Positions 30,726-47,391 of a stretch of DNA of 57,230 bases are shown here, in pieces; within the stretch, counting starts at the first letter, position 1; each line of letters begins with the position of its first letter. The position numbers and the translations under genes are program-made. The DNA comes from Chloroflexota bacterium (GTDB lineage Bacteria; Chloroflexota; Anaerolineae; Promineifilales; Promineifilaceae), in assembly GCA_022616275.1 (NCBI GenBank), contig JAKEFB010000210.1:1-57230 (forward strand). Reading direction: 5' to 3'. A model generated the notes under the pieces. That model had not been told where the DNA came from. It saw only the letters and a program-made list of their open reading frames with translations, and made no database searches.

Positions 30726-31060
30726 GCCGGGGGGATTGTAACACCGTCCCCCGCTTTAGCCAGATGAGTAGGCGCGCGTTCTGGCCCGCGAAACCCGTCA
30801 GATTCTGTAGGGGTACGAACTATCATGCTCCTGCATGACGGGTCTCAAATCGAATCTGCTGAATCTTTTGATTTTATCAATCCTTTTGGTAGACTACTTA
30901 TAGTACCAGTTAGATAGCCATTGAACCTTTCAAAGTAGCCGGAGTAATTATCGCGCGAAACGCATTTTGCCTAAAAATCAAGCTAAGTTGGGGAGCTATG
31001 GGCACCGGGCGTCACGGGCAGGGCCTGTGGCCGGTGGCAAGGTTGAAAGAGGAGGCTGCC
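30726..31060. other. Promoter region of the respiratory cluster
   Basis: About 335 bases between divergent genes. The left half contains ACCCGTCAGATTC and a later TGACGGGT (30791-30845 zone), a loose inverted pair. The right half is AT-rich and includes TATAGT-like words but no unambiguous promoter. The ATG at 30998 is preceded by GGGGAG only two bases away; a TTG at 31061 has AGAGGAGG five bases away and is preferred as start of the cydA-like gene. Confidence 0.4.
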
Positions 31061-33067
31061 TTGCAAGCTCAGAATCACCCTCAAGCGGGTCTATCTACCA
31101 GTTGGCGCACAGTCCTGTCTGGCGTCGTGCTGGCCCTTTGCCTGCTGGCATTGTTCACCGGGGTTGTCTTTGCCCAGGACGGTGGGCCTGCTGAATACCG
31201 CCAGGTTTCTTTCATCAGCAGCCGGGTAGCCATCTGGCTCACGGCCCAGGTCCACCTGATGTTTGGCGCCTTCATGTTAGGCGTGCCCATGTTTGCCCTC
31301 GTCGTTGAGTACGTGGGCCTGCGCTCTGGAGACAAACGCTACGACGACCTGGCCCGCGAATTTACCAAGCTGATCCTGGTCGCCGCCTCGACTACGGCCG
31401 GCTTTGGCGCCCTGCTGACCTTCTTGCTGTTCACCCTCTACCCCAATTACATGGGCAAGCTGGCCGACGCTTTCCTGCCGACGATGATCATTTACCCCCT
31501 GCTCATCTTTGGCGAGATTTTCTTCCTCTACCTTTACTGGTACTCCTGGGATCGCCTGAACACCCCCACCGGGAAGCGCTGGCACCTGCTCATTGGCCTG
31601 CTGCTTAACGTCTTTGGCACGGTGCTGATGTTTGTCGCCAACGCCTGGCTGACCTTCGCCATCAGCCCGGAGTCCGAAGGGCAGTCACTGTACGACTCGG
31701 CCGGTAATTTCACCGGCACCGTCTGGCAGGCGGTCAACAACGCCACCTGGTGGCCAATCAACATTCACCGGGTCATTGCCAACGTCGCCTTTGGCGGCGC
31801 GGTCGTCGGCATGTACGCCGCCCTCCGTTTTCTGGACGCCCGCAACGACGAAGAGCGCGCCCACTACGACTGGATGGGCTACGTCGGCAATTTTATTGCC
31901 GTCATCGGCCTCATTCCGCTGCCCTTTGCCGGTTACTGGCTCGGCCGCGAAATTTACGGTTTTAACCAGCAGATGGGCGTGACCATGATGGGTGGTTTCC
32001 TGTCCTGGCTATGGATTCTCCAGGCCATGCTCATTGCCGTCATCTTCCTCTCGGCCAACTATTATCTATGGATTGGCATGGGGCGGATCGAGGGCGGCGA
32101 GCGTTACACCGGGGTCATCAAATGGCTGCTGCTTGTCTTAACCATTGGCGTCCTGGTCTGGGCCACGCCGCACAACCCGGTAGTAACGCCGGCCGAACAG
32201 GCCCTCATCGGCGGCGCCTTCCATCCCCTGCTGGGCGTGTTGGGCGTCATGTCGGCCAAGAACACGGCCGTCAACATCATGATCCTCAGCACTTTCCTTA
32301 GTTTTCTCCTCTACCGCCGGGCCGGCAAGGGCGAACCGCTGCCTTTTGCCAGCCACGCCCGCACGGCCGCCGCCGTCCTGGTCGTCGTCGTCCTGGTCTG
32401 CCTCGTCTTGATGCTGACGCCGGCCCTCTACGTGCTGCGCGAGGGCCTGGGCGAAACGTCGCAACTGCTGCGGGTATTGCTCAGCGCCTTGCACGGCCTG
32501 ATGATTTTTATTGGCGCAGCCTTGACGATCAAAGGCCGGGGCAAGTTGGGCCAGTGGTTGATTATGGGGTCGGCCGCCTTTGTGGTTGTCTTCTTCGGCG
32601 TCTATGGCTACTTCGTCGAAGCCGTGATACGCATTGGCTTTTCCATCTACCAGGTGTTGGCCGTCCTGACCACGCTCATTTCCGTTAGCGCCATTGACAT
32701 TCTCCTCTACCGGGGCGCACCCAACATTGGCGCCATTCGTTGGGGCCAGATGCCACTGCGCTCCCAATATATTTTGATCCTGCTGGCCGTTACCTTCACC
32801 TGGCTGATGGGGCTGATGGGCTACGCCCGCAACGCCATCCGCCAGCACTGGCACATTTACCAGGTGGTCCAGGATACGTCTGTAGACGCTTTTTCGCCCA
32901 CCCTGGGCTTTGCCGCCCAGGTCATTTCTGTCTGCGTTCTACTTTTCCTTGGCCTGGTTGGCTTCATATTCTGGTTGAGCAACCTGGGTCAAAAGAAGGA
33001 AGTAGTCGAAACTGCTCCCACCCCGGCTCCGGTTATACCGAAACCAGAGCCGGCAATCACTGACTGA
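31061..33067 (+). CDS. CydA-like membrane haem protein 1 (no CydB partner)
   Basis: 668 residues from TTG at 31061 (AGAGGAGG upstream); starting at ATG 30998 gives 689. A signal-like helix ends near VVFAQDGG, followed by about 13-14 membrane helices. The first half follows CydA of cytochrome bd: AQVHLMFGAFMLG with a His in the position of the b595 ligand (residue ~65), FGEIFFLYLYWYSWDRL with a Glu in the position of E107, and WPINIHRVIANVAFGG with a His at the b558 ligand position (~236). FAGYWLGREIYG is in the place of GRQPW. The long periplasmic Q-loop of true CydA is missing. The second half (~400-668) has no CydA counterpart. No cydB is near. Proposed role: membrane electron entry protein of the cytochrome module. 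Confidence 0.8.
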   Translation: MQAQNHPQAGLSTSWRTVLSGVVLALCLLALFTGVVFAQDGGPAEYRQVSFISSRVAIWLTAQVHLMFGAFMLGVPMFALVVEYVGLRSGDKRYDDLAREFTKLILVAASTTAGFGALLTFLLFTLYPNYMGKLADAFLPTMIIYPLLIFGEIFFLYLYWYSWDRLNTPTGKRWHLLIGLLLNVFGTVLMFVANAWLTFAISPESEGQSLYDSAGNFTGTVWQAVNNATWWPINIHRVIANVAFGGAVVGMYAALRFLDARNDEERAHYDWMGYVGNFIAVIGLIPLPFAGYWLGREIYGFNQQMGVTMMGGFLSWLWILQAMLIAVIFLSANYYLWIGMGRIEGGERYTGVIKWLLLVLTIGVLVWATPHNPVVTPAEQALIGGAFHPLLGVLGVMSAKNTAVNIMILSTFLSFLLYRRAGKGEPLPFASHARTAAAVLVVVVLVCLVLMLTPALYVLREGLGETSQLLRVLLSALHGLMIFIGAALTIKGRGKLGQWLIMGSAAFVVVFFGVYGYFVEAVIRIGFSIYQVLAVLTTLISVSAIDILLYRGAPNIGAIRWGQMPLRSQYILILLAVTFTWLMGLMGYARNAIRQHWHIYQVVQDTSVDAFSPTLGFAAQVISVCVLLFLGLVGFIFWLSNLGQKKEVVETAPTPAPVIPKPEPAITD

Positions 33068-33076
33068 CAATACTAT

Positions 33077-33859
33077 ATGAGAACTTCACTAAAAGTTTCG
33101 GCGTTCATCGTGATCGTAATTGTGGCCATTGCCGGCTTTGCCTCGCTCATTCCCCAGGTTGAATCCCCGGCTCCGGAAACATTAGAAATCAGTGGTAACC
33201 TGTCTGGCGCGGAACTGGCAGCCTTGGGCCAGGAAGTCTTTGAAAGCGCCGAAGCCGCCTGTTTAACCTGCCATGGTTTAGGCCGGGAGGGCCTGCGGGC
33301 GCCAGACCTGGCCGGCATTGGCGCGGCCGCGGCCGATCGCGTCCCCGGCCAGCCAGCCGAAGCGTATATCCGGGAGTCCATCGAGGACCCCTGCGCCCAC
33401 GTCGTCGAGGGCTTCGACTGTATCATGCCCCAGACGCTGCTCCAGACCCTTGGCCCGGCCAAGGTGACGGCCCTGGTTGCTTTTTTGCAAAGCCAGGGTG
33501 GCGAGGTGACAGTTACGCTGTCGGCCGAGGAGGCGGAGGGCGACGCCGGATCGAGCGGCGGGGGCGTTGGCGTGCCCGGTACGACGGCCGAAGAGATTAT
33601 CGCCGCTTTGGCCTGCAGCGGCTGTCACACGATTGAAGCCATTGGCGCAACCGGCGCTGTTGGTCCCGATCTCTCTCAAATTGGCGCGCGCCTCAGCGCG
33701 GACGAGATCCGGGAATCTATTTTGGCGCCAGACGCGGTGATCGCCGAGCAGTGCCCGACCGGCCCCTGCCCCGCAGGGGTAATGCCCAAGATTTTTGGCG
33801 AGCGTCTCACGGCCAGGCAGTTAGAAACAGTGGTTGATTTCCTGAGTAATCTCAAATAG
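33077..33859 (+). CDS. Dihaem cytochrome c, membrane-anchored or secreted (module A)
   Basis: 260 residues. An N-terminal hydrophobic helix (7-24) serves as anchor or signal. Two c-type haem sites, CLTCH near 58 and CSGCH near 181, each head a small cytochrome domain, with Met ligands probable in IMPQTLLQTLGP and VMPKIFGERLT. A Gly-rich linker around 155-165 separates the domains. The pattern resembles c-type domains that end MP..G..L(T/L)..Q...V..(F/Y)L. It starts ten bases after the cydA-like gene and probably carries electrons between the module's proteins. Confidence 0.88.
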   Translation: MRTSLKVSAFIVIVIVAIAGFASLIPQVESPAPETLEISGNLSGAELAALGQEVFESAEAACLTCHGLGREGLRAPDLAGIGAAAADRVPGQPAEAYIRESIEDPCAHVVEGFDCIMPQTLLQTLGPAKVTALVAFLQSQGGEVTVTLSAEEAEGDAGSSGGGVGVPGTTAEEIIAALACSGCHTIEAIGATGAVGPDLSQIGARLSADEIRESILAPDAVIAEQCPTGPCPAGVMPKIFGERLTARQLETVVDFLSNLK

Positions 33860-33869
33860 GAAGCAGGTT

Positions 33870-34673
33870 GTGGCCGCCATCAATTCCAGTCTGAAGCACA
33901 AGCTGGCCCAGTTCTTGCTGGTGCTTGTCTTAGCCTATCTCTTCTTTCGTTTTGGTATTCCTGCTCTGGCGCTGCTCCTGACGGGCACACCGGCCCCGGT
34001 CCCGACCCACTTGTTGTGGGCTATCTATATGCCGACGATGGCCCTGGTCATGCTGTTGTTCGTCTCGGCCAACGAGGCGGCCTGGCGTGAGTTCAAGGCC
34101 CCGCTCCGCACCCTGGTGGTCGAGCGTGAACGGCGCGGAGTGGTGCTGTTACGGCAGGTGATCCTGGTCGCCTTGCCCTTGCTGGCCGGCCTGTGGGCTT
34201 TTTTCCAGGTCCGGCCGAGCGCCGACCCGCCGGCCGAATTGCGTTCGGTCCATCCTGCGCCACCTGATTCGGTCACGGTGGACGGCGAAGTTATTAACCT
34301 GCGCACGGCGGTGAACCCCTTCCGTGGCCCCGATGGCCTTCCTGATCCGGAGGCGCTGGCGGCGGGCAAAGCGATTTACGGCCGGAACTGCGTTTACTGC
34401 CACGGCGACGCGCTGGACAGCGACGGGCTCTTTGCCTCTGCGCTCCGGCCACGCCCGGCCGATTTCACCGACCCGGGCACTATTGCCCAACTGCAAGAAT
34501 CTTATTTGTTCTGGCGTATTGCCCAGGGCGGGCCTGGCCTGCCGCCGGAAGGGAAGGGCTGGAATTCGGCCATGCCTGCCTGGGAAGGCACGCTCTCCAG
34601 GGACGAGATCTGGCAGGTTATCCTTTACTTGTACGACGCCACCGGGCAGCATCCACGGCAGGCGGGAGAATAA
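33870..34673 (+). CDS. Monohaem cytochrome c with three membrane helices (module A)
   Basis: 267 residues, GTG start. Hydrophobic helices at about 12-35, 46-66 and 90-112 precede a periplasmic domain with a single CVYCH near 172 and a Met-type ligand in the NSAMPAWEGTLSRDEIW segment. It has the same layout as the protein at 40919-41716. Encoded between two dihaem cytochromes with 8-10 base gaps, it is likely part of the same complex. Confidence 0.85.
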   Translation: MAAINSSLKHKLAQFLLVLVLAYLFFRFGIPALALLLTGTPAPVPTHLLWAIYMPTMALVMLLFVSANEAAWREFKAPLRTLVVERERRGVVLLRQVILVALPLLAGLWAFFQVRPSADPPAELRSVHPAPPDSVTVDGEVINLRTAVNPFRGPDGLPDPEALAAGKAIYGRNCVYCHGDALDSDGLFASALRPRPADFTDPGTIAQLQESYLFWRIAQGGPGLPPEGKGWNSAMPAWEGTLSRDEIWQVILYLYDATGQHPRQAGE

Positions 34674-34681
34674 GGTAGCCA

Positions 34682-36181
34682 ATGAGTCGTATACGCATCG
34701 GCATCGCCGTTATCACCACAGCTCTCACCATCGTCGTGGCCTTCAACTCGGCCGGTGTGCGAACCACGCGCGCAGCCACCCAGGCGCAGACGGCCGAAGG
34801 GCAGGCTATCTACAGCCAGCGCTGTGAAATTTGCCACGGGGCCGAAGGCGACGGCGCCGGGCCGGCAGCCGAGAATATGGATCCCCGGCCGCGTGACTTC
34901 CGGCGCGGCTGGTACAAAATCCGCACCACTGCCTCTGGCCAGCTCCCCACCGACGAAGACCTGGTGCAGATTATCAGCCGGGGCATGCCCGGCACAACCA
35001 TGCCGGCCTGGGAAGGTGTATTGAGTGAAGCCGAGATTCAGGCCGTGGCCGAATACATCAAGGGCTTTTCCCGTCGTTTTGAGAGAGAGACGCCGGAGCT
35101 GGTTGTGGCCGGGTCGAAAGTCGAGGCCAGCCAGGAGAGCATCGCTCGTGGCGCAGAACTCTTTGCCGGGCAGGAAGCGGAGTGTGTCAAGTGTCATGGC
35201 CCGGCCGGGCGTGGCGACGGCCCCAGCGCCGATGAACTGACCGAAGATTCCTTCGGCGATGTCATCGTCCCCGCCGACCTGACCATGCCCTGGCTGTTCC
35301 GTGGTGGGCCAACGGTAGACGACATTTATATGCGCCTTAAGACGGGCCTGACGGGCAGCCCTATGCCCGCTTACGCCGACGTGCTCTCTGACGAGGACAT
35401 CTGGAACCTGGCCAACTACGTAGACTCGCTGGGGCCGGATGCGCCGGTTGAGCCGGCGGCGGCCATAACCGCCGCTGCTTTCCAGGGCGCTCTGCCCACC
35501 GACCCGAATGCAGCAGCCTGGCAGGAAGCGACTGAATATTACTATCCGCTGGCCGGCCAGATCATGCGCGAGCCGCGCCAGTATACGCCCTCCGTGAAAG
35601 GGGTCTGGGTACAGGCTTTGTACAATGATCAGGAATTGGCCCTGCGGCTAAGATGGCATGATCGCTTCCAGGACGCCGGCGCCGGCGGCCAACCGGCCGA
35701 TGTATTGGCGGTGCAGTTTCCGGCCGCGTTGCCGGAAGGGGGCGAGCGGCCCTATTTTGTCTTTGGCGATTCAGCCAACCCGGTCAACTTGTGGCTCTGG
35801 AGCGCGCTCACCAATAGCATTGAGGAGCGCACCGGCCACGGCGTGGATACCGACGCGCCCCAGGCCAGCCAGGACGTGCAGGGAACGGCCGTGTTTGACA
35901 ACGGTGAGTACATTCTCGTTCTGCGGCGGTCCTTGAACACCGGAGACCCGGAGGACATTCACATTGAGACGGGCCGTTTTGTCCCTATTGCTTTTATGGC
36001 CTGGGACGGCTGGAGCGGCGAAGAAGGCCCGGCCGGGGCGATTACCTCGTGGCATTTGATTTACCTGGATAAGCCCGTACCGCTCACCGCCTACGTCTGG
36101 GTCCCGGTGGCCATCGTCGCCACGGCCGTGGTGGAAGGATGGGTGGTCTGGGCCGCACGGCGTAAAGAGCGAATAACGTAA
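34682..36181 (+). CDS. Dihaem cytochrome c fused to EB-dh-type haem-binding domain (module A)
   Basis: 499 residues. Signal peptide (1-32), CEICH near 49 with TTMPAWEGVLS, and CVKCH near 169 with SPMPAYADVLS give two class I haem domains. Residues about 270-465 resemble the ethylbenzene-dehydrogenase gamma-type (EB_dh, DMSO reductase-like) haem b domain: a beta-sandwich with W-x-Q-A-L-Y-N-D-Q-E-L-A-L-R type strands, FGDSANPVNLWLW and FVPIAFMAWDGWSGE, where a Met is a possible haem ligand. One C-terminal membrane helix (about 472-492) anchors it. The fusion of c-type and EB-dh domains on one chain is uncommon and is repeated in module B. Confidence 0.85.
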   Translation: MSRIRIGIAVITTALTIVVAFNSAGVRTTRAATQAQTAEGQAIYSQRCEICHGAEGDGAGPAAENMDPRPRDFRRGWYKIRTTASGQLPTDEDLVQIISRGMPGTTMPAWEGVLSEAEIQAVAEYIKGFSRRFERETPELVVAGSKVEASQESIARGAELFAGQEAECVKCHGPAGRGDGPSADELTEDSFGDVIVPADLTMPWLFRGGPTVDDIYMRLKTGLTGSPMPAYADVLSDEDIWNLANYVDSLGPDAPVEPAAAITAAAFQGALPTDPNAAAWQEATEYYYPLAGQIMREPRQYTPSVKGVWVQALYNDQELALRLRWHDRFQDAGAGGQPADVLAVQFPAALPEGGERPYFVFGDSANPVNLWLWSALTNSIEERTGHGVDTDAPQASQDVQGTAVFDNGEYILVLRRSLNTGDPEDIHIETGRFVPIAFMAWDGWSGEEGPAGAITSWHLIYLDKPVPLTAYVWVPVAIVATAVVEGWVVWAARRKERIT

Positions 36182-36205
36182 GAATTCACATGGGCCACGG
36201 CCCAC

Positions 36206-36256
36206 CACGATGAATGAAAATTAATTCGTCTAATTCGTGCAATTCGTGGCTACTTT
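36206..36256. repeat. Word-repeat spacer (AATTCGT words)
   Basis: AATTAATTCGTCTAATTCGT continuing with GCAATTCGTGG: the word AATTCGT occurs three times directly before the lipoprotein gene. Shares words with the spacers at 12912 and 52885. Confidence 0.55.
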
Positions 36257-36270
36257 TAGAGGAGAAAAGT

Positions 36271-37074
36271 ATGAAACGCATCTTGGTCTTGCTCGTTGGC
36301 ATATTAACAATTTTCCTAGTGGCTTGCGGCGGCGGAGGCGGCGAGGAACCAGACGCGGCTACCCAGCCTCCCCCTACGGTGGTGGAGGAGGGAGGCGGGG
36401 AAGAGCCCGAACCGGCCGCCGGGGGTTACCAGGGCGGCACGGTATCCGATGGGGGCACTATCTCCGGCAAGATTACCTATTCCGGCCCGGCGGTGGAACC
36501 AGAAACGGTAGAAACCGACAAGGACCAGGAGGTCTGCGGGGACTCGATTGAAATCACCCGGGTCAAAACCGACGCTTCGGGCGGCCTGGCCAACGCCATC
36601 GTCCGCATTACCGACATTTCTTCCGGCAAGCCGCTGGACACCCTGGGCAGCGACTTCGTCCTGGACCAAAACGGCTGTGAATATGTGCCCGCCGCCCTTG
36701 TTGTTCCGGTCGGCTCCGCCATCACCATCCTCAACAGTGACGGCATCCTGCACAACATTCATACCACGCCCTTCGACAATCCGCCGCTCAATATCGCTCA
36801 GCCGGCAACAGAGCCGGAAGTTTCTAGTGATCCCTTCACCATTCCGGAAATCATCCCCGTGAGTTGTGACGTCCATAGCTGGATGGAAGCCACGCTTATC
36901 GTGGTAGATAATCCCTATGCCGTTACGACCGGCGAGGATGGCTCATTTACCCTCGACGACGTCCCGGCCGGCACGTACACCATTGAGGTCTGGCATGCCG
37001 AACTGGGGACACAGACGATGACCGTCACAGTTGAAGCCGGTGGCACGGCGACAGCGGACGTAGAGTTTGAGTAG
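36271..37074 (+). CDS. Cupredoxin-like lipoprotein with carboxypeptidase-regulatory-like tail (module A)
   Basis: 267 residues from ATG 36271 (GAGGAG upstream). A lipobox LVAC places the Cys at about 19, followed by a Gly/Glu-rich linker. Residues about 80-215 look like a cupredoxin: DGILHNIHTTP gives the first His, and SCDVHSWM supplies Cys, His and Met with blue-copper spacing. The last ~55 residues (GSFTLDDVPAGTYTIEVWHAE) fit a carboxypeptidase regulatory-like beta-sandwich. It would be an outer-face, one-electron carrier. The counterpart at 43307 has the same layout. Confidence 0.8.
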   Translation: MKRILVLLVGILTIFLVACGGGGGEEPDAATQPPPTVVEEGGGEEPEPAAGGYQGGTVSDGGTISGKITYSGPAVEPETVETDKDQEVCGDSIEITRVKTDASGGLANAIVRITDISSGKPLDTLGSDFVLDQNGCEYVPAALVVPVGSAITILNSDGILHNIHTTPFDNPPLNIAQPATEPEVSSDPFTIPEIIPVSCDVHSWMEATLIVVDNPYAVTTGEDGSFTLDDVPAGTYTIEVWHAELGTQTMTVTVEAGGTATADVEFE

Positions 37075-37091
37075 ATCCAGGATCTGTTGTC

Positions 37092-37160
37092 AAACCCCGC
37101 AGGTCTCCGAGGGCACGGAACGTGCCCCGGGCACGTTTTGTGCCCCGACCTGCGGGGTTT
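37092..37160. repeat. Nested clover-like hairpin repeat upstream of the second cydA-like gene
   Basis: The outer stem AAACCCCGCAGGTC (37092-37105) pairs perfectly with GACCTGCGGGGTTT (37147-37160). Inside it are two further hairpins, GGGCAC/GTGCCC at 37111-37127 and GGGCAC/GTGCCC at 37129-37145. The outer stem belongs to the same family as 40858-40890. The result is a three-way junction between module A and module B. Confidence 0.75.
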
Positions 37161-37176
37161 CAAATAGGAGGTCGGT

Positions 37177-39228
37177 ATGCGGAAAGTACACCACTTACGC
37201 CCCTACCTGGCCATAAGCCTGGTGCTCCTGGCCCTGTTGGCCCTGGCGCCGCCAGTCGCCGCCCAGGGTGGTGGCCCGCCGGATTACCGCAATTATTTTG
37301 GGGCCGATTCGCGCCTGGTGGTCTGGGTGGTGGCCCAATTGCACCTGCTTTTTGCTGCTTTTGTTCTGGGCGTGCCCATCTTCGCCGTCATCACCGAATA
37401 CGTCGGCTACCGGAGTGGTGAAAAGCGCTACGACAAGCTGGCCCACGACTTTACCAAGTTGCTGTCGGCCGCCTTCTCGACCACGGCCGCTTTTGGTGGG
37501 TTGCTGGCCTTTAGCCTCTTTGCCCTTTACCCTACCTTTATGTCTCACCTGTCCGACGTCTTTAGCCCTACTTTCCTCTGGTACGGTCTGCTCTTCTTCG
37601 CCGAGGGTTTCACCATGTATTTCTACCTGTACTCCTGGAAACGGCTACAAGGGGACAGGAAGAAATGGCATTTGTGGACAGGTGTATTCCTCAACGTATT
37701 CGGCGTGGCCATCATGCTCATTGCCAACTCCTGGGTTTCATACATGATGAGCCCGCCGCTGGCCGAGGTGGACGCAGAAACAGGCGAGGTGGTCAGACAG
37801 GGCCTGAACGCGTTGACGCTGGAGTGGTCAGGCACCCTCTGGCAGGCGATCAATAACCCGCTGTGGTCGCCACTCAATATCCACCGTACTATTGGCAATG
37901 TGGCCTTTGGCGGCTTTATTGTCGGGGCTTACGCGGCCGTGCGCTTTCTGAATTCCAAAACGGCCGAGGCCCGCGCCTACTACGATTGGATGGGCTACAT
38001 CGGCAACTTCATCGGGGTAGCGGCGCTCATTCCCATGCCCTTCGCCGGGTACTACATGGGGCGCGAAGTCTATTCCTACAGCGCCGTCATGGGCAACAAC
38101 ATGATGGGTGGCGCTTTCTCCTGGACCTTTATCATTCAGGCTATCCTCATCGGCGCGCTATTTATCGGCGCCAACTTCTACCTCTGGAGCGGCATGAGGC
38201 GCATCCCTGGCTCAGAGCGTTACCTGAAGTACATCAAGTGGCTGGACGTGGTTCTCATCATCTGCTTTGCCATCTGGCTCACGCCGCACAACCTGCCCCT
38301 CTCGCCTTCGGAACAGGTGATCATGGGCGGGCAGTTTCACCCCACGCTCAAGTTCCTGGGCCTGATGGCAGCCAAGAACGCCGTCATCAACTTTATTATC
38401 GTGGCCACCTTCATGAGTTTCCTTTTCTACCGGCGAGGCAATAAGGGCGAGCGAGTGCCGGTCAGCCAGCAGGGCGCCGGCGCCAAGATCGTCGTGCTGG
38501 TCGCCTTTGCTGTCGTGGCCCTGGTCCTGGGCTGGTATGCCGCGGGTATCTTCTCCCTTAATCCGGATACCCTTGACCTGGATGCCAGCAAAGGCGTCTA
38601 CTTTACGCTGGTGGCTGTTTTGCTGGTGGTCCAGATCGTGGCCGGGGCTGTGGCCGTGGGATTGACGTTGACCGACCGGGGCGTTACCGGACAGTTGCTT
38701 TACCTGGCGACCACCGTCCTAAACTCTGTTTTCATCCTGGGGCCATATGGCTTCGTGGTCATGACCCAGGCCAACCCGTTTTTGCGGAACATCGCCGTGG
38801 CCCAGTGGCTGATTACCATGTCCAGCCTGGTGCTGGTCGCGGCGATTGACATCGTCCTGCTGCGGGGCGCGAAGGAGATTGGCGCCATCCGCTGGGGGCA
38901 GATGGCCGGGAGCAGCCAGTATGCCCTCATTTTACTCGTCGTTGGCGTGGTAATGCTGATGAGCTTGATGGGTTACATCCGTTCCGGCCTGCGCGAAGAT
39001 TGGCACATCTTTGGCGCGCTGCGGGACACTTCGGCCTCGGCCCTGACGCCCAGTATGGCCTACATGGCCCGCGTCATTGCCGGGATTGTGGCCGCCTTTA
39101 TGGCCCTCATTGCTTTTGTCTTCTGGCTGGCTGGCCTGGGCGAGACGGGCGAAGTGGAGGAAGGAACAATGGCCATCCCTCCTCAACCAACCCCGCAACC
39201 AGCAGCCAGCACTGTGCCAAGTGACTGA
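37177..39228 (+). CDS. CydA-like membrane haem protein 2 (no CydB partner)
   Basis: 683 residues, a clear paralogue of the protein at 31061-33067 over its whole length. Signal-like helix ends PPVAAQGGG. Conserved sites: AQLHLLFAAFVLG (His), FFAEGFTMYFYLYSW (Glu), LNIHRTIGNVAFGG (His), FAGYYMGREVYSY. As in copy 1, the Q-loop is absent and a second half of about seven helices follows (GAIRWGQMAGSSQYALI, GYIRSGLREDWHIFGALRDTS), with similar residues in copy 1. AGGAGG precedes the ATG. Function as for copy 1; the duplication suggests different partners or conditions, or a heterodimer. Confidence 0.82.
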   Translation: MRKVHHLRPYLAISLVLLALLALAPPVAAQGGGPPDYRNYFGADSRLVVWVVAQLHLLFAAFVLGVPIFAVITEYVGYRSGEKRYDKLAHDFTKLLSAAFSTTAAFGGLLAFSLFALYPTFMSHLSDVFSPTFLWYGLLFFAEGFTMYFYLYSWKRLQGDRKKWHLWTGVFLNVFGVAIMLIANSWVSYMMSPPLAEVDAETGEVVRQGLNALTLEWSGTLWQAINNPLWSPLNIHRTIGNVAFGGFIVGAYAAVRFLNSKTAEARAYYDWMGYIGNFIGVAALIPMPFAGYYMGREVYSYSAVMGNNMMGGAFSWTFIIQAILIGALFIGANFYLWSGMRRIPGSERYLKYIKWLDVVLIICFAIWLTPHNLPLSPSEQVIMGGQFHPTLKFLGLMAAKNAVINFIIVATFMSFLFYRRGNKGERVPVSQQGAGAKIVVLVAFAVVALVLGWYAAGIFSLNPDTLDLDASKGVYFTLVAVLLVVQIVAGAVAVGLTLTDRGVTGQLLYLATTVLNSVFILGPYGFVVMTQANPFLRNIAVAQWLITMSSLVLVAAIDIVLLRGAKEIGAIRWGQMAGSSQYALILLVVGVVMLMSLMGYIRSGLREDWHIFGALRDTSASALTPSMAYMARVIAGIVAAFMALIAFVFWLAGLGETGEVEEGTMAIPPQPTPQPAASTVPSD

Positions 39229-39243
39229 AATTCGGTATTCTTT

Positions 39244-39648
39244 ATGGCTCAGTGGTACGCGCAACTGGTTTTTAAGGGTGACACGCTTCTCAGCGATAGT
39301 CTTGCCGACTGGACGGAGGTGGATGGCGTGTTGCCGGCCGGTATCGAGGCCAACGGCCGCGAACGCTATACGACCGTCATTGTTTCCGGCTATGCACTGT
39401 ATGGCCGGTTGCGCGGCTACTACGCTCTGGGTGTGGCCCACGTCGCCGCGGACCCGGCCACCGGCCGGACCTACTATCTCTCTGAGGAAAGTGCCCTGCA
39501 TAAAGAGCCGGTGGACTCGTTGACGGCGACGCAACGGGCCGCCATCCGTGAGTGGTTGGTGGCGCTGAATCAAGAGGCGTGGGAGAACTCGACGGAAGCG
39601 TTTAGAGAAAGTTTAGAGGGAACTATACCTGACAAGGTGACAAGGTGA
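39244..39648 (+). CDS. Small soluble protein specific to module B, unknown
   Basis: 134 residues, no signal peptide, no membrane helix, no Cys motif. Sequence such as TVIVSGYALYGRLRGYYALG suggests a beta-rich fold. No family recognised. It follows the cydA-like gene by 15 bases and has no counterpart in module A. No ribosome binding site is obvious before the ATG. It is absent from the other copy of the set, so it may have been lost there or acquired here. Confidence 0.55.
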   Translation: MAQWYAQLVFKGDTLLSDSLADWTEVDGVLPAGIEANGRERYTTVIVSGYALYGRLRGYYALGVAHVAADPATGRTYYLSEESALHKEPVDSLTATQRAAIREWLVALNQEAWENSTEAFRESLEGTIPDKVTR

Positions 39649-39715
39649 TGGCTGCTCGAAGGGCGGGGTGACAAGGTAAAAAAATGCCACTTTATGACCA
39701 TGTTGAGTATAAGCG

Positions 39716-40858
39716 ATGTTAAAGAAAGTGGGTCGAATTCTGTCGGTTCTGGCTTGCCTGGGCACATTCCTGGCCCTTATCGCCAACTTGCCGGTTTTCT
39801 TCCTCCCCTGGATTCTCTGGTTTCTGGCAGCGGCGGCGCTGATGGTCTGGCTGTGGCCGGCCGGGCGAACGGGCGCATTTGTTTTGATCATCCTTGGCGC
39901 CTTTGTCTACATTGGCGCGCTGGTGACAGAGATTTCTGGCGGTGGTGGAACGGCCGTCGCCGCCGAAGGCGTCAACCCAGAGGCCGGCGAGGCCATCTAC
40001 TGGGGTAAGGGTAAGTGCAGCACCTGCCACAGCCTGGGTGACCAGGGGTCGGCCATTCGCGGGCCGAACCACGAAAACGTCTGCGCCAAAGCCCTGGCGG
40101 AGCGCCTGCCGGCCCGGCAGGCGGCCGGGGCCAGCCACATCCAGACCCCGACCGATTACCTGGTCGAGTCCATCGCCGATCCCCAGGCTTACATTGTCGA
40201 AGGTTTTTCCGGGGCCATGCCGAAGGTCTACCTGCCGCCCGTCAGTCTGAACCCGGACGAGATCCGGGCGGTCATCGTCTATATGCAAACGCAAGGGTGT
40301 GAAGCCGACCCCGCCGCCATCAACCTCCCGGCCGAAATCCTGAACGCGGCGACCGCGGAAGTTGCCGCCGGGGGCGAGTTTAACCTGGTGCTGGTGGGAG
40401 ATCCGGCCGCCGGCCGGGAACTGTTCTTTGACGAAGCAGAGGCGGCCGCTTGCGTCAAGTGCCACACCGTCGCCGGCGAGGGTGAAGAGGTTGGGCCGGA
40501 ACTGACCGACGTGGCCGGTACGCAGACGGCGGCTTACATCTTTGAGTCCATCATGAATCCCAGCGCAGAAATTGCCGCCGGCGACTACGAGCCAATCCAG
40601 GTGCGCTTGAATGACGGCACCGTTCTCTCCGGCATTATCGTGGCCGAGGACGAGGCCAGCCTGACTATCAAGGATAAAGAGGGGGAGGAGACAGTGGTGA
40701 ACCGGGCCGACGTTGACCGTGAAGCACGCTACCCGGACGTGCCCAGCATTATGCCCAGCAACTTCGGCGAGCTGCTCACGGTGCAACAGGTGGCCGATTT
40801 AATTGCCTTTTTGCAAGAAAGCGCGGGGGTTCTGCCCGCTGAAGAAGAAGGAGAATGA
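39716..40858 (+). CDS. Dihaem cytochrome c with two N-terminal membrane helices (module B)
   Basis: 380 residues. Membrane helices at about 5-24 and 26-45 and a third hydrophobic stretch to about 75, then CSTCH near 101 with a C-terminal AMPKVYLPPVSL, and CVKCH near 245. The last ~75 residues (VRLNDGTVLSGIIVAEDE, then SIMPSNFGELLTVQQVADLIAFL) resemble the haem-binding domain found at the C-terminus of planctomycete-type cytochromes. It is the module B counterpart of 33077-33859 but longer and with more membrane helices. Confidence 0.85.
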   Translation: MLKKVGRILSVLACLGTFLALIANLPVFFLPWILWFLAAAALMVWLWPAGRTGAFVLIILGAFVYIGALVTEISGGGGTAVAAEGVNPEAGEAIYWGKGKCSTCHSLGDQGSAIRGPNHENVCAKALAERLPARQAAGASHIQTPTDYLVESIADPQAYIVEGFSGAMPKVYLPPVSLNPDEIRAVIVYMQTQGCEADPAAINLPAEILNAATAEVAAGGEFNLVLVGDPAAGRELFFDEAEAAACVKCHTVAGEGEEVGPELTDVAGTQTAAYIFESIMNPSAEIAAGDYEPIQVRLNDGTVLSGIIVAEDEASLTIKDKEGEETVVNRADVDREARYPDVPSIMPSNFGELLTVQQVADLIAFLQESAGVLPAEEEGE

Positions 40859-40890
40859 AACCCCGTAGGTCTCAAAGACCTACGGGGTTT
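40858..40890. repeat. Hairpin repeat between cytochrome genes of module B
   Basis: AAACCCCGTAGGTCT (40858-40872) pairs perfectly with AGACCTACGGGGTTT (40876-40890) around CAA. It begins at the last base of the preceding stop codon. Outer-stem sequence is shared with the element at 37092-37160. It has no T-run, so it is unlikely to end transcription. Confidence 0.75.
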
Positions 40891-40918
40891 GACGGCGGAG
40901 TTGAGATTGGAGGTCCGT

Positions 40919-41716
40919 ATGCCCAGGCGGTTGCCACTCTTTTGGACAGTCATCCTGACTATTTTAGGCGCATATCTGTTCCTGCGCCTGGTCGTGCCCT
41001 ATGCCTCGATGTTGATCGCCGGCCAGGACAATCCCCTACCTGTGCCCGGCGCGCTCATGGGAATTTACCTGGCTCTGATTGTGGCCGGCGTCTTTGTTTA
41101 CCTGGCGGCTGACGAAGCCCGCTGGCGGGATTTTGGGGCGCCGGTAGAGGCTTTGCTGCGCGGCCGCGAAACCATCCAGACGACAAACGACCGGATTCTT
41201 CATATTGGCCGCCTGGTGATCCTGGCCGCCGTCCCCCTGCTGGCCGGCTGGATCGTCTACTCCAATACTGCCCCATCTTCGACGCCGCCGGCGGCGCTGC
41301 GCATCCAACACCCGACTATTCCCTTCGCCTATGAGAAGTTAACCAACCCATACCGCAACCCCGATGGCACGGTGGACCCTGAAATCATCGAGGAGGGCCA
41401 GGTGCTGTATCAAATTAACTGCCGCCCCTGCCACGGCACGCCGGCCAACGGCGAGGGGCCGATGGCTTACGGTTTTCGCCTGAAGCCGGCCAACTTCCGT
41501 TCGGAAGATACCATAGCCACGGTGATCGAGGCCTATGCTTTCTGGCGCGTGAAGGAAGGCGGTATTGGCCTGCCGACTGCAGGTAGCCCCTGGGACTCGG
41601 CCATGCCGGCCTGGGAGGGTACACTGACGGACGATGAAATCTGGAAGATCATTGCTGCTGAGTACGATACGGCGGGCGTGGAACCACGCCGGCCGGAGAC
41701 AGCAGAAGGGGAATAG
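40919..41716 (+). CDS. Monohaem cytochrome c with three membrane helices (module B)
   Basis: 265 residues, start at ATG 40919 (GGAGG seven bases upstream). Three hydrophobic helices (about 6-28, 40-62 and 92-112) lead to a periplasmic domain with CRPCH near 168 and a likely Met ligand in DSAMPAWEGTLTDDEIW. Same design as the protein at 33870-34673 with similar segments (NPYRNPDGTVDPE versus NPFRGPDGLPDPE). Confidence 0.85.
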   Translation: MPRRLPLFWTVILTILGAYLFLRLVVPYASMLIAGQDNPLPVPGALMGIYLALIVAGVFVYLAADEARWRDFGAPVEALLRGRETIQTTNDRILHIGRLVILAAVPLLAGWIVYSNTAPSSTPPAALRIQHPTIPFAYEKLTNPYRNPDGTVDPEIIEEGQVLYQINCRPCHGTPANGEGPMAYGFRLKPANFRSEDTIATVIEAYAFWRVKEGGIGLPTAGSPWDSAMPAWEGTLTDDEIWKIIAAEYDTAGVEPRRPETAEGE

Positions 41717-41726
41717 GCAAAAGCGT

Positions 41727-43292
41727 ATGGGGTCTCAATCACGTCGCAACTTCTGGCTGGTTTTACTGCTGGCTGTGGGCCTGGCTGGCTTCATAGTGGT
41801 AAGTCCCACAGCCACTCTGGCCGTCAGGCCGGCGGCCGCGCAGGCCACGCTGGACGGCGAAGCCATTTACCTGGAACGGTGCGCCTTCTGCCACGGCGAG
41901 AATGGTGATGGCGATGGACCGGTGGCCCCTTATCTCAATCCCCGGCCGCGCGATTTCACCTCCGGCCAGTTCAAATTTCGCACCACTGCTTCCGGCGAAC
42001 TTCCCCTGCGTGAAGACGTAATTCATATCGTCCAGGTAGGCGTCCGCAGCACGGCGATGCCCGCCTGGGAAGGTGTTTTGACCGAGGCAGAAATCGAGGC
42101 GGTCGTGGATTATCTAACCCAAAATTTTGTGCCCGATTGGGGCGAGTTTGAACCGGTGGTGATCCCTGTTGGCAACCCGCCGCGCGTGACTGCGGCCATC
42201 ATCGCCGAAGGCGAGCAAATCTACCAGGAGTTGCAGTGCTGGAAATGCCACGGCCAGGCGGGGCGTGCCGATGGTCCTTCGGCGCCTACCCTGACCGATG
42301 ATTTTGATTTTCCTATTCGTGCCGCCGATTTAACCAAAGCGTGGCGTTATAAGGGCGGCAGTGAGCTGATAGACATTTACAGCCGCTTTTCCACCGGTCT
42401 CAATGGCACGCCGATGCCGTCATTCTATGATGTCTTCCCTGAAGAGGAACGGGAAGAGAAGTTGTGGGCGCTCTCCGCCTACGTGTACTCCCTGCAAGCC
42501 CAGCAGCCGACCGAGCAAAGCGTGATCACGGCCGGGCGTATCGCCGGCTCCCTGCCCACTTCCCCAGAGGCCCCGGAATGGAACGAGGTCGAAGCCGTTT
42601 CCCTTTTCCTGACCGGCCAGGTCATTACCGGCCCGCGCTGGCAGACGCCGGGCGTGGACGCCGTGACGGTGCGCGCCCTGCACAACGACGAAAGCCTGGC
42701 TCTCCTGGTCGAATGGAGCGACCCCTTTCAAGACGCGGCCGGCGGCGGTAGCGAGGGTAACGTGGGCAACGCTACCTACGTGAACCTCGATGAGTTTCTG
42801 GGCACGGCCGGTCCCCAACCTGATGCGTTGGCGGTGCAGTTCCCCCAAACCGTGACCGAGGGAACGCAGAAACCCTATTTCTTCTGGGGCCAGCCGGGCC
42901 AGCCGGTCAACTTGTGGCGCTGGCAGGCGGATAGTTCGGTGGCCGAGTATAATGTGGCCGGCTTTAGGGAGGAATGGCAACCGCAGGAGTCGTCACAGGT
43001 CACGGCCGAGGCTTCCTGGGCTGATGGACAATACCGGCTGCTGTTTACCCGGCCGCTGACGACGACTGATCCGAACGACGTCCAATTGGTTCCGGGCGAG
43101 TTCATTCCCATTGCCTTCCAGGCCTGGGAAGGATCAAATGGGGAAGCCGGCACACGCCTGGCGCTTTCTTCCTGGTACAGCCTGGTCCTGGAAAAGCCGG
43201 CGCCGGTTTCCGTTTACCTTTATACCGTTCTCACCGTGGGGCTGGTGGCTGCAGGCGAGTGGCTGCTGGTGAGACGGGCAAGGCGAAAATAG
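41727..43292 (+). CDS. Dihaem cytochrome c fused to EB-dh-type haem-binding domain (module B)
   Basis: 521 residues from ATG 41727. Signal peptide to about 33 (PAAAQA), CAFCH near 51 with STAMPAWEGVLTE, CWKCH near 172, EB-dh-type domain about 280-490 (VTVRALHNDESLALLVEWSD, FFWGQPGQPVNLWRWQ and FIPIAFQAWEGSNGE) and a C-terminal membrane helix. In the EB-dh part the Met seen in the module A copy (IAFMAWDG) is Gln here (IAFQAWEG), so haem coordination there may differ or be lost. Otherwise the domain order is identical to the paralogue. Confidence 0.85.
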   Translation: MGSQSRRNFWLVLLLAVGLAGFIVVSPTATLAVRPAAAQATLDGEAIYLERCAFCHGENGDGDGPVAPYLNPRPRDFTSGQFKFRTTASGELPLREDVIHIVQVGVRSTAMPAWEGVLTEAEIEAVVDYLTQNFVPDWGEFEPVVIPVGNPPRVTAAIIAEGEQIYQELQCWKCHGQAGRADGPSAPTLTDDFDFPIRAADLTKAWRYKGGSELIDIYSRFSTGLNGTPMPSFYDVFPEEEREEKLWALSAYVYSLQAQQPTEQSVITAGRIAGSLPTSPEAPEWNEVEAVSLFLTGQVITGPRWQTPGVDAVTVRALHNDESLALLVEWSDPFQDAAGGGSEGNVGNATYVNLDEFLGTAGPQPDALAVQFPQTVTEGTQKPYFFWGQPGQPVNLWRWQADSSVAEYNVAGFREEWQPQESSQVTAEASWADGQYRLLFTRPLTTTDPNDVQLVPGEFIPIAFQAWEGSNGEAGTRLALSSWYSLVLEKPAPVSVYLYTVLTVGLVAAGEWLLVRRARRK

Positions 43293-43306
43293 AAAAGAGG
43301 TGGATG

Positions 43307-44095
43307 ATGAAAGGAGTAAAACTATTTTGGTTGGCAATTATTAGTCTGATCGTCTTGTTGCTGGCGGCCGGGTGCGGCGGTGGCGGAGACGGGGCTGGCA
43401 ACGGCGAGGAGAATGGCGGCGGTGAAGCGGCCGTGGAGAATCCGGTAGACCCGGCGACGGCGGCGTCTATTGCCGGGAGAGTACTCTTTACCGGCACAGC
43501 GCCCGAGCCGGAGCCTATTCTGATGGACGCCGAGCCCGTCTGCCAGGAAAAACACCCTGATGGTGCCTTTACCGAAACGGTAGTCGTCAATGGCGATGGC
43601 ACGTTGCAGAACGTCTTCGTCTACGTGAAGGACGGTCTGGGTGATCTGGAATTCCCTGTTCCCGAGGAAGGCGTTGTTCTTGACCAGACCGGCTGCCACT
43701 ACGTGCCCCACGTCCTGGGTGTCCAGGTTGGCCAGGACTTGATCATTCGCAATAGCGATGGCATTCTGCACAACATTCACCCCATGCCCACCACCAACCG
43801 GGCTTTTAACCTGGGCCAGCCGGTGGCCATGGACTCGACCAAGCAATTTACCGAGGTCGAGGTCATGATCCCCATTGAATGCGACGTCCACGACTGGATG
43901 CTCGGCTACCTGGGCGTCCTGGACCATCCTTACTTTGACACGACTGGTGAAGATGGTGCCTTCTCGCTGCCTAACCTGCCACCAGGCACGTACACCATTG
44001 CTGCCTGGCACGAACTCTATGGCGAGCAAACGATGTCGGTGACGGTCGGCGAGCAGGAAGCGGCCGAGATTGAGTTTACGTTTGAAGGTAGTTAA
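43307..44095 (+). CDS. Cupredoxin-like lipoprotein with carboxypeptidase-regulatory-like tail (module B)
   Basis: 262 residues. Lipobox LLAAGC (Cys about 21), Gly-rich linker, then a cupredoxin-type domain: DGILHNIHPMP with the first His, and IECDVHDWMLGYLGV with Cys, His and Met in blue-copper spacing. The C-terminal GAFSLPNLPPGTYTIAAWHE matches the carboxypeptidase regulatory-like fold. Pairs with the copy at 36271; both close their modules. It directly precedes the oxidase genes, so it could deliver electrons to CuA of subunit II. Confidence 0.8.
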   Translation: MKGVKLFWLAIISLIVLLLAAGCGGGGDGAGNGEENGGGEAAVENPVDPATAASIAGRVLFTGTAPEPEPILMDAEPVCQEKHPDGAFTETVVVNGDGTLQNVFVYVKDGLGDLEFPVPEEGVVLDQTGCHYVPHVLGVQVGQDLIIRNSDGILHNIHPMPTTNRAFNLGQPVAMDSTKQFTEVEVMIPIECDVHDWMLGYLGVLDHPYFDTTGEDGAFSLPNLPPGTYTIAAWHELYGEQTMSVTVGEQEAAEIEFTFEGS

Positions 44096-44165: not shown

Positions 44166-44825
44166 GTGGGCGGAATCCATCCTGAGGCTTCGACCTTTGC
44201 CGGTCCTATTGACCAGATGTTCATGGTGGTGCTGATTGTCACCAGTGTGGCCTTTGTGCTGGTCGAGGGCACGTTGCTTTATTTCTTGATCCGCTACCGC
44301 CAACGCCAGGGACAGAAGGCTGCCTACATTCACGGCAACCGTCGCGTCGAAGCCGCTTGGACGATCATACCGGGAATGATGCTCTTCGGGCTGGCCGTTT
44401 TCCAGTACAACACCTGGGTGAGGGCGAAACTCTTTCTGCCGGCCGAATCCGATGCGCTCGTCGTCGGCGTGTCCTCTAACCAGTTTGAGTGGGAGGCGAC
44501 CTACCCCGGTGCGGACGGGGCGCTGGATACGGCCGACGACGTTAAGGCCCCCATTAATATTCTGCATTTCCCGGTCAACCGGCCGGTCATTATCCGGCTG
44601 GAATCTGAGGATGTGCTCCACAGTTTTTGGATACCGGCCCTGCGCGTCAAGCAGGACGCCATACCGGGACGGGAGATTGAACTCTGGTTTGAAGCCACTC
44701 TGCCTGGCGAGTATGAACTGGCCTGCGCCGAACTGTGTGGCCTGGGCCATTACCGGATGCGCGGCCGGGTCACCATCGAGTCAGAGTCCGAATTTGCGGC
44801 TTGGCTGGCCGAGTTGGCTGAATAA
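44166..44825 (+). CDS. coxB: Cytochrome c oxidase subunit II (CuA)
   Basis: 219 residues, GTG start with AAGGAGG upstream. Two membrane helices (about 15-40 and 60-82) and a periplasmic domain with full CuA ligands: HSFWIPALRVKQD near 155 and CAELCGLGHYRM near 189 (Cys, Cys, His, Met, plus Glu). No c-type haem domain at its C-terminus, unlike caa3 oxidases, so the separate cytochromes or cupredoxins must supply electrons. Confidence 0.95.
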   Translation: MGGIHPEASTFAGPIDQMFMVVLIVTSVAFVLVEGTLLYFLIRYRQRQGQKAAYIHGNRRVEAAWTIIPGMMLFGLAVFQYNTWVRAKLFLPAESDALVVGVSSNQFEWEATYPGADGALDTADDVKAPINILHFPVNRPVIIRLESEDVLHSFWIPALRVKQDAIPGREIELWFEATLPGEYELACAELCGLGHYRMRGRVTIESESEFAAWLAELAE

Positions 44826-44867
44826 CGGTAGGGCTCCACATGGCTGGTAACCCACCACCACGGATAA

Positions 44868-44905
44868 AAATGCTGATAGCTAATAGCCGATAGCTGACAG
44901 CTATT
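44868..44905. repeat. Word-repeat spacer (GATAGCT words) before coxA
   Basis: AAAAATGCTGATAGCTAATA and GATAGCTGACAGCTATTTTT form an inverted pair in the 95-base gap between coxB and coxA. The end T-run (CTATTTTT) could let it act as a weak terminator. Confidence 0.55.
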
Positions 44906-44921
44906 TTTGCAGGAGGAAGAT

Positions 44922-46667: not shown

Positions 46668-46670
46668 CTG

Positions 46671-46731
46671 AAGTGCCAGGCACTTGATGACTTTGCCCGA
46701 TACCCGGCCAGCCGTAACGTGCCTGGCACTT
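46671..46731. repeat. Hairpin repeat between coxA and coxC
   Basis: AAGTGCCAGGCAC (46671-46683) pairs with GTGCCTGGCACTT (46719-46731), with a 35-base loop. Same family as 47343-47375. Confidence 0.7.
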
Positions 46732-46751
46732 ATGCTCGAGAAAGGAGTCCT

Positions 46752-47342
46752 ATGACCCACACAGCTATTAGCGAACATCACGTCACCCCTACCTGGCAGG
46801 GGATCAAGACGCTTAAGTTTGCGATGTGGTTATTCCTGGCCTCAGAAATCATGTTTTTTGCCGGGCTGATCGTGGCCTATTTGTCGCTGCGTTTTAGCAA
46901 GCCGGCCTGGCCGGTGGCGGCCGAACTACTGAACGTGCCCTTGGTGGCGCTGAACACGTTCATTTTGATCTTCAGCAGTGTTACGATGGTGCTGGCCTAT
47001 GACCGGGCCGAGCACGGCGACCGCCGGCGGGCGCCCTATTTCTTGTTGGCCACGGCCGTGCTCGGTGCCATCTTCGTCACCATCCAGGGCATCGAGTGGG
47101 GCGAATTGGCGGGCGAAGGGATTAGCGTCTCCACCGACCTGTTTGGTGCCAGCTTCTACACTGTGACCGGTTTCCACGGCGCACATGTTACCGGCGGGGT
47201 TATTTGGGTGCTGTGGACGGCAATTAAGGCTTTCCGCGGCCGCTACGTCCAGGACCACCTCGGCATTGAGTTGGTAGGATTGTACTGGCATTTTGTGGAC
47301 GTGGTCTGGATTTTTCTGTTTACGATTATCTACCTGATTTAA
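46752..47342 (+). CDS. coxC: Cytochrome c oxidase subunit III
   Basis: 196 residues, five membrane helices, start at ATG 46752 (AAAGGAG upstream). KFAMWLFLASEIMFFAGLI and HGAHVTGGVIW, GLYWHFVDVVWIFLFTIIYL are diagnostic of the family. It supports proton uptake and stability of subunit I. Smaller than mitochondrial subunit III because the first two helices are absent, as is usual in bacterial A2-type operons. Confidence 0.95.
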   Translation: MTHTAISEHHVTPTWQGIKTLKFAMWLFLASEIMFFAGLIVAYLSLRFSKPAWPVAAELLNVPLVALNTFILIFSSVTMVLAYDRAEHGDRRRAPYFLLATAVLGAIFVTIQGIEWGELAGEGISVSTDLFGASFYTVTGFHGAHVTGGVIWVLWTAIKAFRGRYVQDHLGIELVGLYWHFVDVVWIFLFTIIYLI

Positions 47343-47375
47343 AAGTGCCAGGCGCTTGATAAGCGCCAGGCACTT
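47343..47375. repeat. Hairpin repeat between coxC and coxD
   Basis: AAGTGCCAGGCGCTT (47343-47357) and AAGCGCCAGGCACTT (47361-47375) pair with one central mismatch. It is the second member of the GTGCCAGGC family in this operon; the ribosome site of coxD (AAGGAG) follows at once. Confidence 0.7.
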
Positions 47376-47391
47376 GTAAGGAGCAACCGTT

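Follow-up and report, generated by a model that had tools for sequence, protein, structure and literature searches.

Closest Described Systems and Outline of the Locus

The nitrite oxidoreductase (NXR) gene clusters of Nitrospina, Nitrospira and Kuenenia have been reported to include a 14-helix cytochrome bd-like protein without quinol residues, one monohaem and one dihaem cytochrome c, two cupredoxin-like proteins and an alternative NxrC, which in Nitrospina has two haem c sites and a haem b domain of the EB_dh type (Luecker 2013, PMC3578206). In Nitrospira moscoviensis, bd-like_3 is accompanied by alt_NxrC_2 and a pair of membrane cytochromes c, and bd-like_4 lies a short way downstream, a few genes on (Mundinger 2019, PMC6606698). 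The role of such proteins in nitrite oxidisers and anammox bacteria was termed "enigmatic" in 2013 (PMC3578206) and was still to be determined in 2019 (PMC6606698), the choice being between an oxidase and an alternative complex III (ACIII), a role already raised by Luecker 2013 (PMC3578206). Here a module of this kind is described which occurs twice, directly upstream of haem-copper oxidase genes, in a 57,230-nucleotide stretch of a Chloroflexota bacterium (GCA_022616275.1, contig JAKEFB010000210.1, positions 1 to 57,230 of the forward strand), referred to as the window.

The window was found to carry two successive gene sets on the plus strand, A1 to A5 (30998-37074) and B1, Bx and B2 to B5 (37177-44095), with open reading frames (ORFs) being read within 28000-50000. 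In both sets the order is a CydA-like protein, a dihaem cytochrome c, a membrane monohaem cytochrome c, a dihaem c-EB_dh protein and a cupredoxin-like protein (genes 1 to 5), with intergenic gaps of approximately 8-102 bases. Directly 3' of set B, after a gap of 70 bases, are the genes for COX2, COX1, COX3, COX4_pro and then DUF420 (44166-48269). A previous sequence-only reading had proposed two five-gene sets of the same order on one strand directly before an oxidase, and this was borne out by the ORFs, the Pfam matches and the ten CXXCH motifs (2+1+2 in each set). The extent which it gave, 31061-44095, is right at its end, with the start lying at 30998 instead, and the strict five-gene repeat is retained as a shared order, set B having an additional gene for a 134-aa protein (Bx, 39244-39648). 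Its statement that no complex of this composition had been described does not hold, as both papers above describe the composition in NXR-linked clusters, the cupredoxin-like proteins being given by Luecker 2013; a characterised complex was not encountered in the literature examined. The quinol- or donor-to-oxidase path that it suggested remains the best reading, without the novelty of composition.

We tentatively read the module as a membrane electron exchanger between the quinone pool and high-potential periplasmic carriers, and not as a bd-type O2 reductase; in the window it would feed CuA.

The CydA-like Protein

A1 (689 aa, 30998-33067) and B1 (683 aa, 37177-39228) matched PF01654 (Cyt_bd_oxida_I) no further than their N-terminal halves (E 5.7e-21 for A1 and 1.6e-23 for B1). 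In a Pfam scan of the 11 module proteins no family match to a CydB partner was obtained. A single-chain model of A1, made from 37 aligned sequences and holding no cofactors or partners, had a pLDDT of 81.7 and a pTM of 0.82. Its ten matches in the PDB at E up to 0.001 were all cytochrome bd oxidase chains. TM-scores by query length were low (0.31-0.37) and the root-mean-square deviation was large for most; the tightest fit was to the Geobacillus enzyme (260 columns at 2.5 Å).

In the Escherichia coli bd-II structure, haem b558 is held by His186 and Met393, haem b595 by Glu445 and haem d by His19 (PMC8585947). These positions were examined in 100 aligned CydA-like sequences, comprising 33 others and 67 module-type rows (5 Chloroflexota, 2 Holophagae, 20 Acidobacteriota, 1 "Deltaproteobacteria", 36 Nitrospirota and 3 Aquificaceae); second copies and copies next to NXR are among the Nitrospirota rows, and the rows are related and do not represent independent events. 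Glu445 is lost in all 67 module-type rows, being replaced by Ser in 64, Asn in two and Ala in one, at a position within the stretch MGxxRxxxR which aligns without gaps among these rows. It is retained in 5/5 canonical rows, 5/5 rows of a second Chloroflexota type (G285-type, see below), 15/19 Chloroflexota CydA-pair rows and one of the four L050-L053 rows. Lys252 and Glu257, which we take to be the quinol residues of CydA, occur in none of the 66 module rows with a letter at those positions. By the same count His186 is kept in 66/66, Glu107 in 64/66 and His19 in 64/66, with Lys in place of His19 in both Holophagae rows (L036 and L037). These two rows are fused CydA-like/dihaem c ORFs (L036:9992-12538 and L037:9866-12532), in which it is thus the haem d ligand that is replaced by Lys.

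Both window proteins keep His19 and His186. The Lys252 position is Met in both and Glu257 is missing from both alignments, while A1 and B1 have Asn and Ser, respectively, at the Glu445 position and Thr and Ala at that of Met393. As the b595 ligand and the canonical quinol residues are lost, the CydA-like protein is probably no longer a bd-type O2 reductase. A Glu/His pair (E400 and H409 of A1), placed in a predicted periplasmic loop by hydropathy-based topology, is kept in 67/67 module rows and occurs as a pair in 0/33 of the others. A1 is 56% identical to the two Holophagae/Acidobacteria rows.

Distribution and Gene Order

Twenty loci (L034-L053) were obtained by a scan with six exact peptide patterns of B1, which therefore returns close relatives only. 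Together with 20 Nitrospirota and 20 Acidobacteriota regions picked from the best matches, these gave 60 loci in which the ordered gene set was sought, as the sequence-only reading had proposed. Genes 1-2-3-4 were found on one strand in 49 of the 60. Two more (L036 and L037) read 1-3-4, and in these gene 1 carries a dihaem domain of the gene-2 kind as a fusion (gene-2 match at E 1.4e-37 and 9e-38), which suggests contact between the products of genes 1 and 2. The other nine consist of eight with a CydA-like gene alone and L187, which reads 1-2-4-3 owing to an over-long gene-4 ORF.

Tandem sets were seen, among the loci read, only in the window and in L034 and L035, which are Chloroflexi or Anaerolineales metagenome-assembled genomes (MAGs). 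L034 covers A4 to B5 followed by cox2 and cox1, and L035 covers A1 to B2, where its contig ends, so that of these two the oxidase is visible in L034 alone. Counterparts of Bx are present at the same place in L035 (58%) and L034 (53%) by tblastn. B1 of the low-coverage L034 MAG is split into two ORFs in different frames (L034:2081-4108), perhaps by a sequencing error.

Sixteen of the 20 Nitrospirota regions have genes 1-2-3-4 in order, eight of them with a second CydA-like gene nearby (L135, L137, L139, L140, L142, L143, L151 and L153), and four have a CydA-like gene alone. In L136, L138 and L141 the lone gene adjoins molybdopterin and Fe-S proteins matching those of L051; the labels "Nitrospira-type" and "nxrA/nxrB-like" rest on gene layout. 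In a profile search at E 1e-60, which counts CydA-like proteins and not whole modules, 193/395 Nitrospirota genomes (the phylum of L040) and 37/396 Acidobacteriota genomes (the phylum of L037) matched.

Within Chloroflexota, a CydA-like match of some kind is present at E 1e-10 in 60/400 genomes, that of the window among them. The matches ranking next below those of the window (G285, G201, G329, G137 and G047; 41-45% identity) are of the G285 type, which keeps Glu445; a gene-2-like cytochrome is nearby in four of these five, and neither gene 3 nor gene 4 was found in the stretches read. When 99 relatives were searched at E 1e-30, only the window's own genome matched, and 52 other genomes of its family had no match; the MAG to which the window's contig (C117) is assigned has a contamination of 5.5%. 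Divergent CydA homologues were also noted in L062 and L064-L073 (Chloroflexota), mostly as CydAA'-like pairs a few kb apart, most of which keep Glu445.

Neighboring Partners in Other Phyla

In the Aquificaceae loci L047 and L049 a nosZ cluster is followed by two gene-5-like genes and then the module, L048 being too short to show this. A C..H..M motif is kept only in the gene-5-like gene adjoining the module, and NosZ of L047 carries a COX2-domain match. Both NosZ and Cox receive electrons via CuA. The regions concerned are L047:3-14460 and L049:3-14410, with the module directly downstream of the nosZ cluster; in L047 a NosD-type protein carries 4Fe-4S domains. In the Holophagae/Acidobacteria loci L036 and L037 the module is followed by a cupredoxin gene and then cox1, cox3, cox4 and cox2 homologues, with a Usp+PCP_red gene upstream. 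A gene of this type also follows the module in 19/20 Acidobacteriota regions and is thus a recurrent neighbor, in L036 at 7869-9959 and in the window, past the oxidase genes, at 48360-50162 (PF00582, E 6.2e-40; PF08369, E 5.5e-32).

Upstream of the module in 16 of the 20 Acidobacteriota regions there is a large ORF with a weak match to the Fe-S protein of L051 (26-38 bits). The four checked with Pfam (L184, L187, L192 and L203) all have 4Fe-4S domains, and three have a molybdopterin-binding match near its cut-off. Multihaem c7 (checked in L198 and L203) and monohaem c genes (checked in L184 and L203) accompany them, and in L184 and L203 the large protein and the CydA-like gene lie too close together to leave space for an ActC-/NrfD-like gene. 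With ActA and ActB being assigned from domain content, these loci (L184, L187, L192, L198, L203 and others) have the appearance of an ACIII arm attached to a membrane subunit of the bd-like kind.

Cytochromes c, EB_dh Domains and Cupredoxins

A2 (33077-33859; CXXCH at 62 and 180) and B2 (39716-40858) are dihaem cytochromes c of which only B2 has an Hfq-like insert. B2 matched Kustd1711 (7zs0) at E 1.7e-63 across residues 54-367, insert included, and its residues 292-332 weakly matched Hfq_1 (E 0.0025, short of the cut-off), while A2 matched 7zs2, a Kustd1711 mutant, more weakly (E 8.4e-20). Kustd1711 is a dihaem protein of the Kuenenia nxr cluster with an Hfq-like nose domain and calcium-tuned haems of approximately +350 mV (PMC11791136).

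A3 (33870-34673, about three predicted helices) and B3 (40889-41716) are membrane monohaem cytochromes matching Cytochrome_CBB3 (E 2.7e-11 and 1.7e-10). Their haem motif and Met235 are invariant in 54 rows, and B3 weakly resembles the ACIII monohaem subunit 6f0k_E (E 3.6e-5).

A4 (34682-36181) and B4 (41727-43292, start placed by eye in an ORF opening at 41634) combine a dihaem c part, an EB_dh domain (PF09459, E 1.6e-17 and 1.1e-24) and a C-terminal helix, as in the alternative NxrC type; in A4, PF13442 matches two stretches. The dihaem part matched the hypothetical cytochrome protein 6h5l (E 1.6e-53 for A4 and 2e-54 for B4), presumably from Kuenenia. B4 also matched NXR-C (E 1e-7), in which the haem b ligands are Met155 and Lys305 (PMC8387239). 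Since these positions are Phe and Ala in A4 and Trp and Arg in B4, haem b in the EB_dh domains of the window is unlikely unless other ligands serve. Across 53 gene-4 rows (one incomplete row being left out), Met occurs in two and Lys in 40 at these columns. No EB_dh domain other than those of A4 and B4 was found in the genome.

A5 (36271-37074, in an ORF with its first ATG at 36214) and B5 (43307-44095) had been proposed as cupredoxin lipoproteins with two blue-copper sites. Both fit the predicted type-1 copper ligand set, with His164, Cys202, His205 and Met208 in A5 (translation numbered from 36262) and His155, Cys192, His195 and Met198 in B5, and across 22 gene-5 rows both His are kept in 22, Cys in 20 and Met in 21. 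The rest of the proposal is less firm, as A5 has only a weak Copper-bind match that stays under the cut-off (E 0.016) and B5 has none, and the lipobox pattern fits in A5 and not strictly in B5, a probable lipoprotein. Bx has no Pfam match at 1e-3.

The presumed acceptor, oxidase subunit II (44166-44825; COX2, E 2.8e-14), has no CXXCH and contains CAELCGLGHYRM, which we take to be the CuA motif. It is followed on the same strand by subunit I (44919-46667; COX1, E 2.5e-155) and, at 46749-48269, by subunits III and IV and the DUF420 protein (COX3, E 7.6e-29; COX4_pro, E 5.6e-14; DUF420, E 1.6e-43). Promoter-like sites (5 vs. 6.4 in shuffles, that is, fewer) and terminator-like sites (28 vs. 19.0, sd 4.4, somewhat more) were not used as evidence.

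Divergence of Sets A and B

The local identities between sets A and B are 47, 32, 41, 41 and 39% for genes 1 to 5, and each pair scored far above 100 shuffles (for gene 1, 1541 vs. a shuffle maximum of 81). The duplication of a unit proposed previously is upheld in that the pairs are homologous and the local sequence NPFRGPDG/NPYRNPDG is indeed that of A3 and B3. The split is old, given identities of 32-47% and separate orthologues of each copy in other Chloroflexi MAGs, by which a recent tandem duplication is ruled out, and the closest kinship of the A and B genes varies with the gene tree. All trees were quick and came with long-branch warnings. A and B stand apart in the gene-1 trees and together in the gene-3 tree (support 86, not starred, with a long B branch). 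Forcing A and B together was not rejected by the approximately unbiased test for gene 1 (p 0.40) or gene 4 (p 0.65) and was rejected for gene 5 (p 0.016), B5 grouping with the Holophagae cupredoxin. The gene-1 test used 30 of 72 rows: every third row was kept from the Acidobacteriota, Nitrospirota and "Nitrospira" groups, and the four rows of L050-L053 and a fragment from L034 were excluded.

Whether A1 and B1 form one CydAA'-like heterodimer, with both sets building one large complex, is a question separate from function. The sets are adjacent in the window, as are parts of both in L034 and L035; the copies are asymmetric, with the insert in B2 and not A2 and Bx in set B only; and CydAA' provides a precedent. 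Against this, a single CydA-like gene is present in the module region in 20/20 Acidobacteriota, 3/3 Aquificaceae and many Nitrospirota loci, where one copy would seem to be enough. A heterodimer is possible but somewhat doubtful. In its fullest form the idea would be a single asymmetric assembly of the CydAA' kind, a quinol:cupredoxin oxidoreductase that carries ten haems c and two type-1 coppers and docks on the haem-copper oxidase. It would amount to a further "complex III" without kinship to bc1, on a bd-oxidase fold without its oxygen site, and in other phyla it would feed NosZ or be joined to an ActB-like arm. This we regard as improbable.

Respiratory Genes of the Host Genome

No NxrA match at the required level was found in the host genome, where the best piece reached 184 bits against a TIGR03479 cut-off of 985. 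An NxrA-type match at E 1e-100 is likewise absent from the 16 genomes of L034-L049, which are mostly MAGs. Among the 20 genomes of L034-L053, a type-II DMSO reductase at E 1e-100 was found only in those of L051 and L052, whose scores (923 and 924 bits) lie slightly below the curated cut-off; no genome of the 20 attains it.

The absence of bc1 and ACIII genes stated by the sequence-only reading is correct for the window, whose contig gave no match to cytochrome b, Rieske or NrfD, and whose module proteins gave none to ActA, ActB or the NrfD-like ActC. It is incorrect for the genome: contigs C288 and C172 carry cytochrome b near Rieske, and NrfD-like genes are present on C98 and C297. The genome also has a third CydA homologue, which ends in a weak cytochrome c domain. 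It is found at C288:6909-19075 (L074) together with cytochrome b, Rieske, a cytochrome with eight CXXCH, a trihaem c protein and a protein that combines seven CXXCH with a b561-type domain. This is another unusual respiratory cluster.

Proposed Function

From the observed genes, their order, ligands, conservation and contexts, we infer complex formation, quinone reactivity, the direction of transfer and CuA as acceptor. The CydA-like protein would take electrons from, or give them to, the quinone pool at a quinone site of its own. Electrons would then pass to the gene-2 and gene-3 cytochromes, to the c-c-EB_dh protein and on to the cupredoxin. In the window the flow would run from quinol to the cupredoxin or a cytochrome c and to CuA of the adjacent oxidase, with the module acting as a complex III stand-in. 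The exchanger is favored because the same four genes stand beside nosZ, cox and ActB-like genes, and traffic between the membrane and high-potential carriers is common to all of these. The closeness of B2 to the high-potential Kustd1711 also counts for it.

Several observations weigh against the exchanger. No quinone site was recognised in the module. Loss of Glu445 is not specific to the module type, as it also occurs in three of the four L050-L053 rows and four of the 19 CydA-pair rows. H619 of A1, seven residues past the lost Glu445 and invariant in the module type, could replace it as a haem ligand, in which case O2 reduction might be possible. A role for E400 and H409 is a guess, and the nearby His392 is not kept in 19/20 Acidobacteriota rows (18 Arg and 1 Ser). 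The two cytochrome b/Rieske loci already in the genome mean that the module is not its sole possible complex III, and the ActB-like genes upstream in Acidobacteriota fit an ACIII-fed terminal oxidase equally well.

Such an oxidase would be of the OR-N type: cytochrome c or cupredoxin would supply the CydA-like protein with electrons for O2 reduction, and the haem-copper enzyme would be a second oxidase next to it. OR-N proteins (CydAA') are classed as putative cytochrome c-oxidising O2 reductases, a further point against the exchanger, and the OR-N5 type lies directly downstream of the ACIII genes in almost all ACIII-bearing Nitrospirales genomes (PMC10839748, PMC12342949), much as the module lies downstream of ActB-like genes in the 16 Acidobacteriota regions. 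The retention of His19, Glu107 and His186 is also in its favor. It is set against this that Glu445 is lost throughout and His19 in both Holophagae rows. An O2 reductase is disfavored further because it would be redundant beside cox, as in the window and in Holophagae, and out of place next to NosZ, contexts which a quinone-linked exchanger would suit in every case. We consider an OR-N-type oxidase unlikely. Less credible still is a donor-side module passing electrons from a periplasmic or extracellular donor mostly to cox and partly back to quinone by reverse transport, as proposed for nitrite oxidisers, in whose NXR clusters relatives occur; the high-potential relative Kustd1711 and the cupredoxins would suit it, but neither the host genome nor the 16 genomes of L034-L049 has an NxrA-level match, other donor enzymes not having been searched for.

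For the bd-like proteins of nitrite oxidisers and anammox bacteria, the loss of Glu445 in all module-type proteins examined and the nosZ, ActB-like or cox partners in genomes where no NXR was detected mean that the oxidase and alternative complex III readings can be separated outside nitrite oxidisers.

Comparison with Known Systems

No description of a doubled module with an oxidase in Chloroflexota was found in the literature examined; subscription papers and preprints were outside this search, which is thus no proof of absence.

The window shares with the canonical CydAB the N-terminal half and the fold of CydA, but differs in having no CydB match in the module and no Lys252, Glu257, Met393 or Glu445. 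The likeness to ACIII is a weakly similar gene-3 c-domain and, in Acidobacteriota, the ActB-like genes upstream of the module, whereas the window module has a CydA-like membrane subunit in place of ActA, ActB and an NrfD-like protein. As in OR-N CydAA', the CydA homologues of the window lack the canonical quinol residues and have extra helices; in contrast, both copies lack Glu445 and have c and c-EB_dh genes attached.

The NXR-cluster module is similar in that a bd-like protein, mono- and dihaem cytochromes c, a two-CXXCH NxrC with helix and a cupredoxin are all present in the window, and B2 is a close homologue of Kustd1711 from the Kuenenia nxr cluster. It differs in that the window genome is without NXR and that the set is doubled, with a cupredoxin in each copy and cox directly after. 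What is new here, as read from the alignments, is the loss of Glu445 across the module-type CydA-like rows and EB_dh domains in the window without the haem b ligands of NXR-C.

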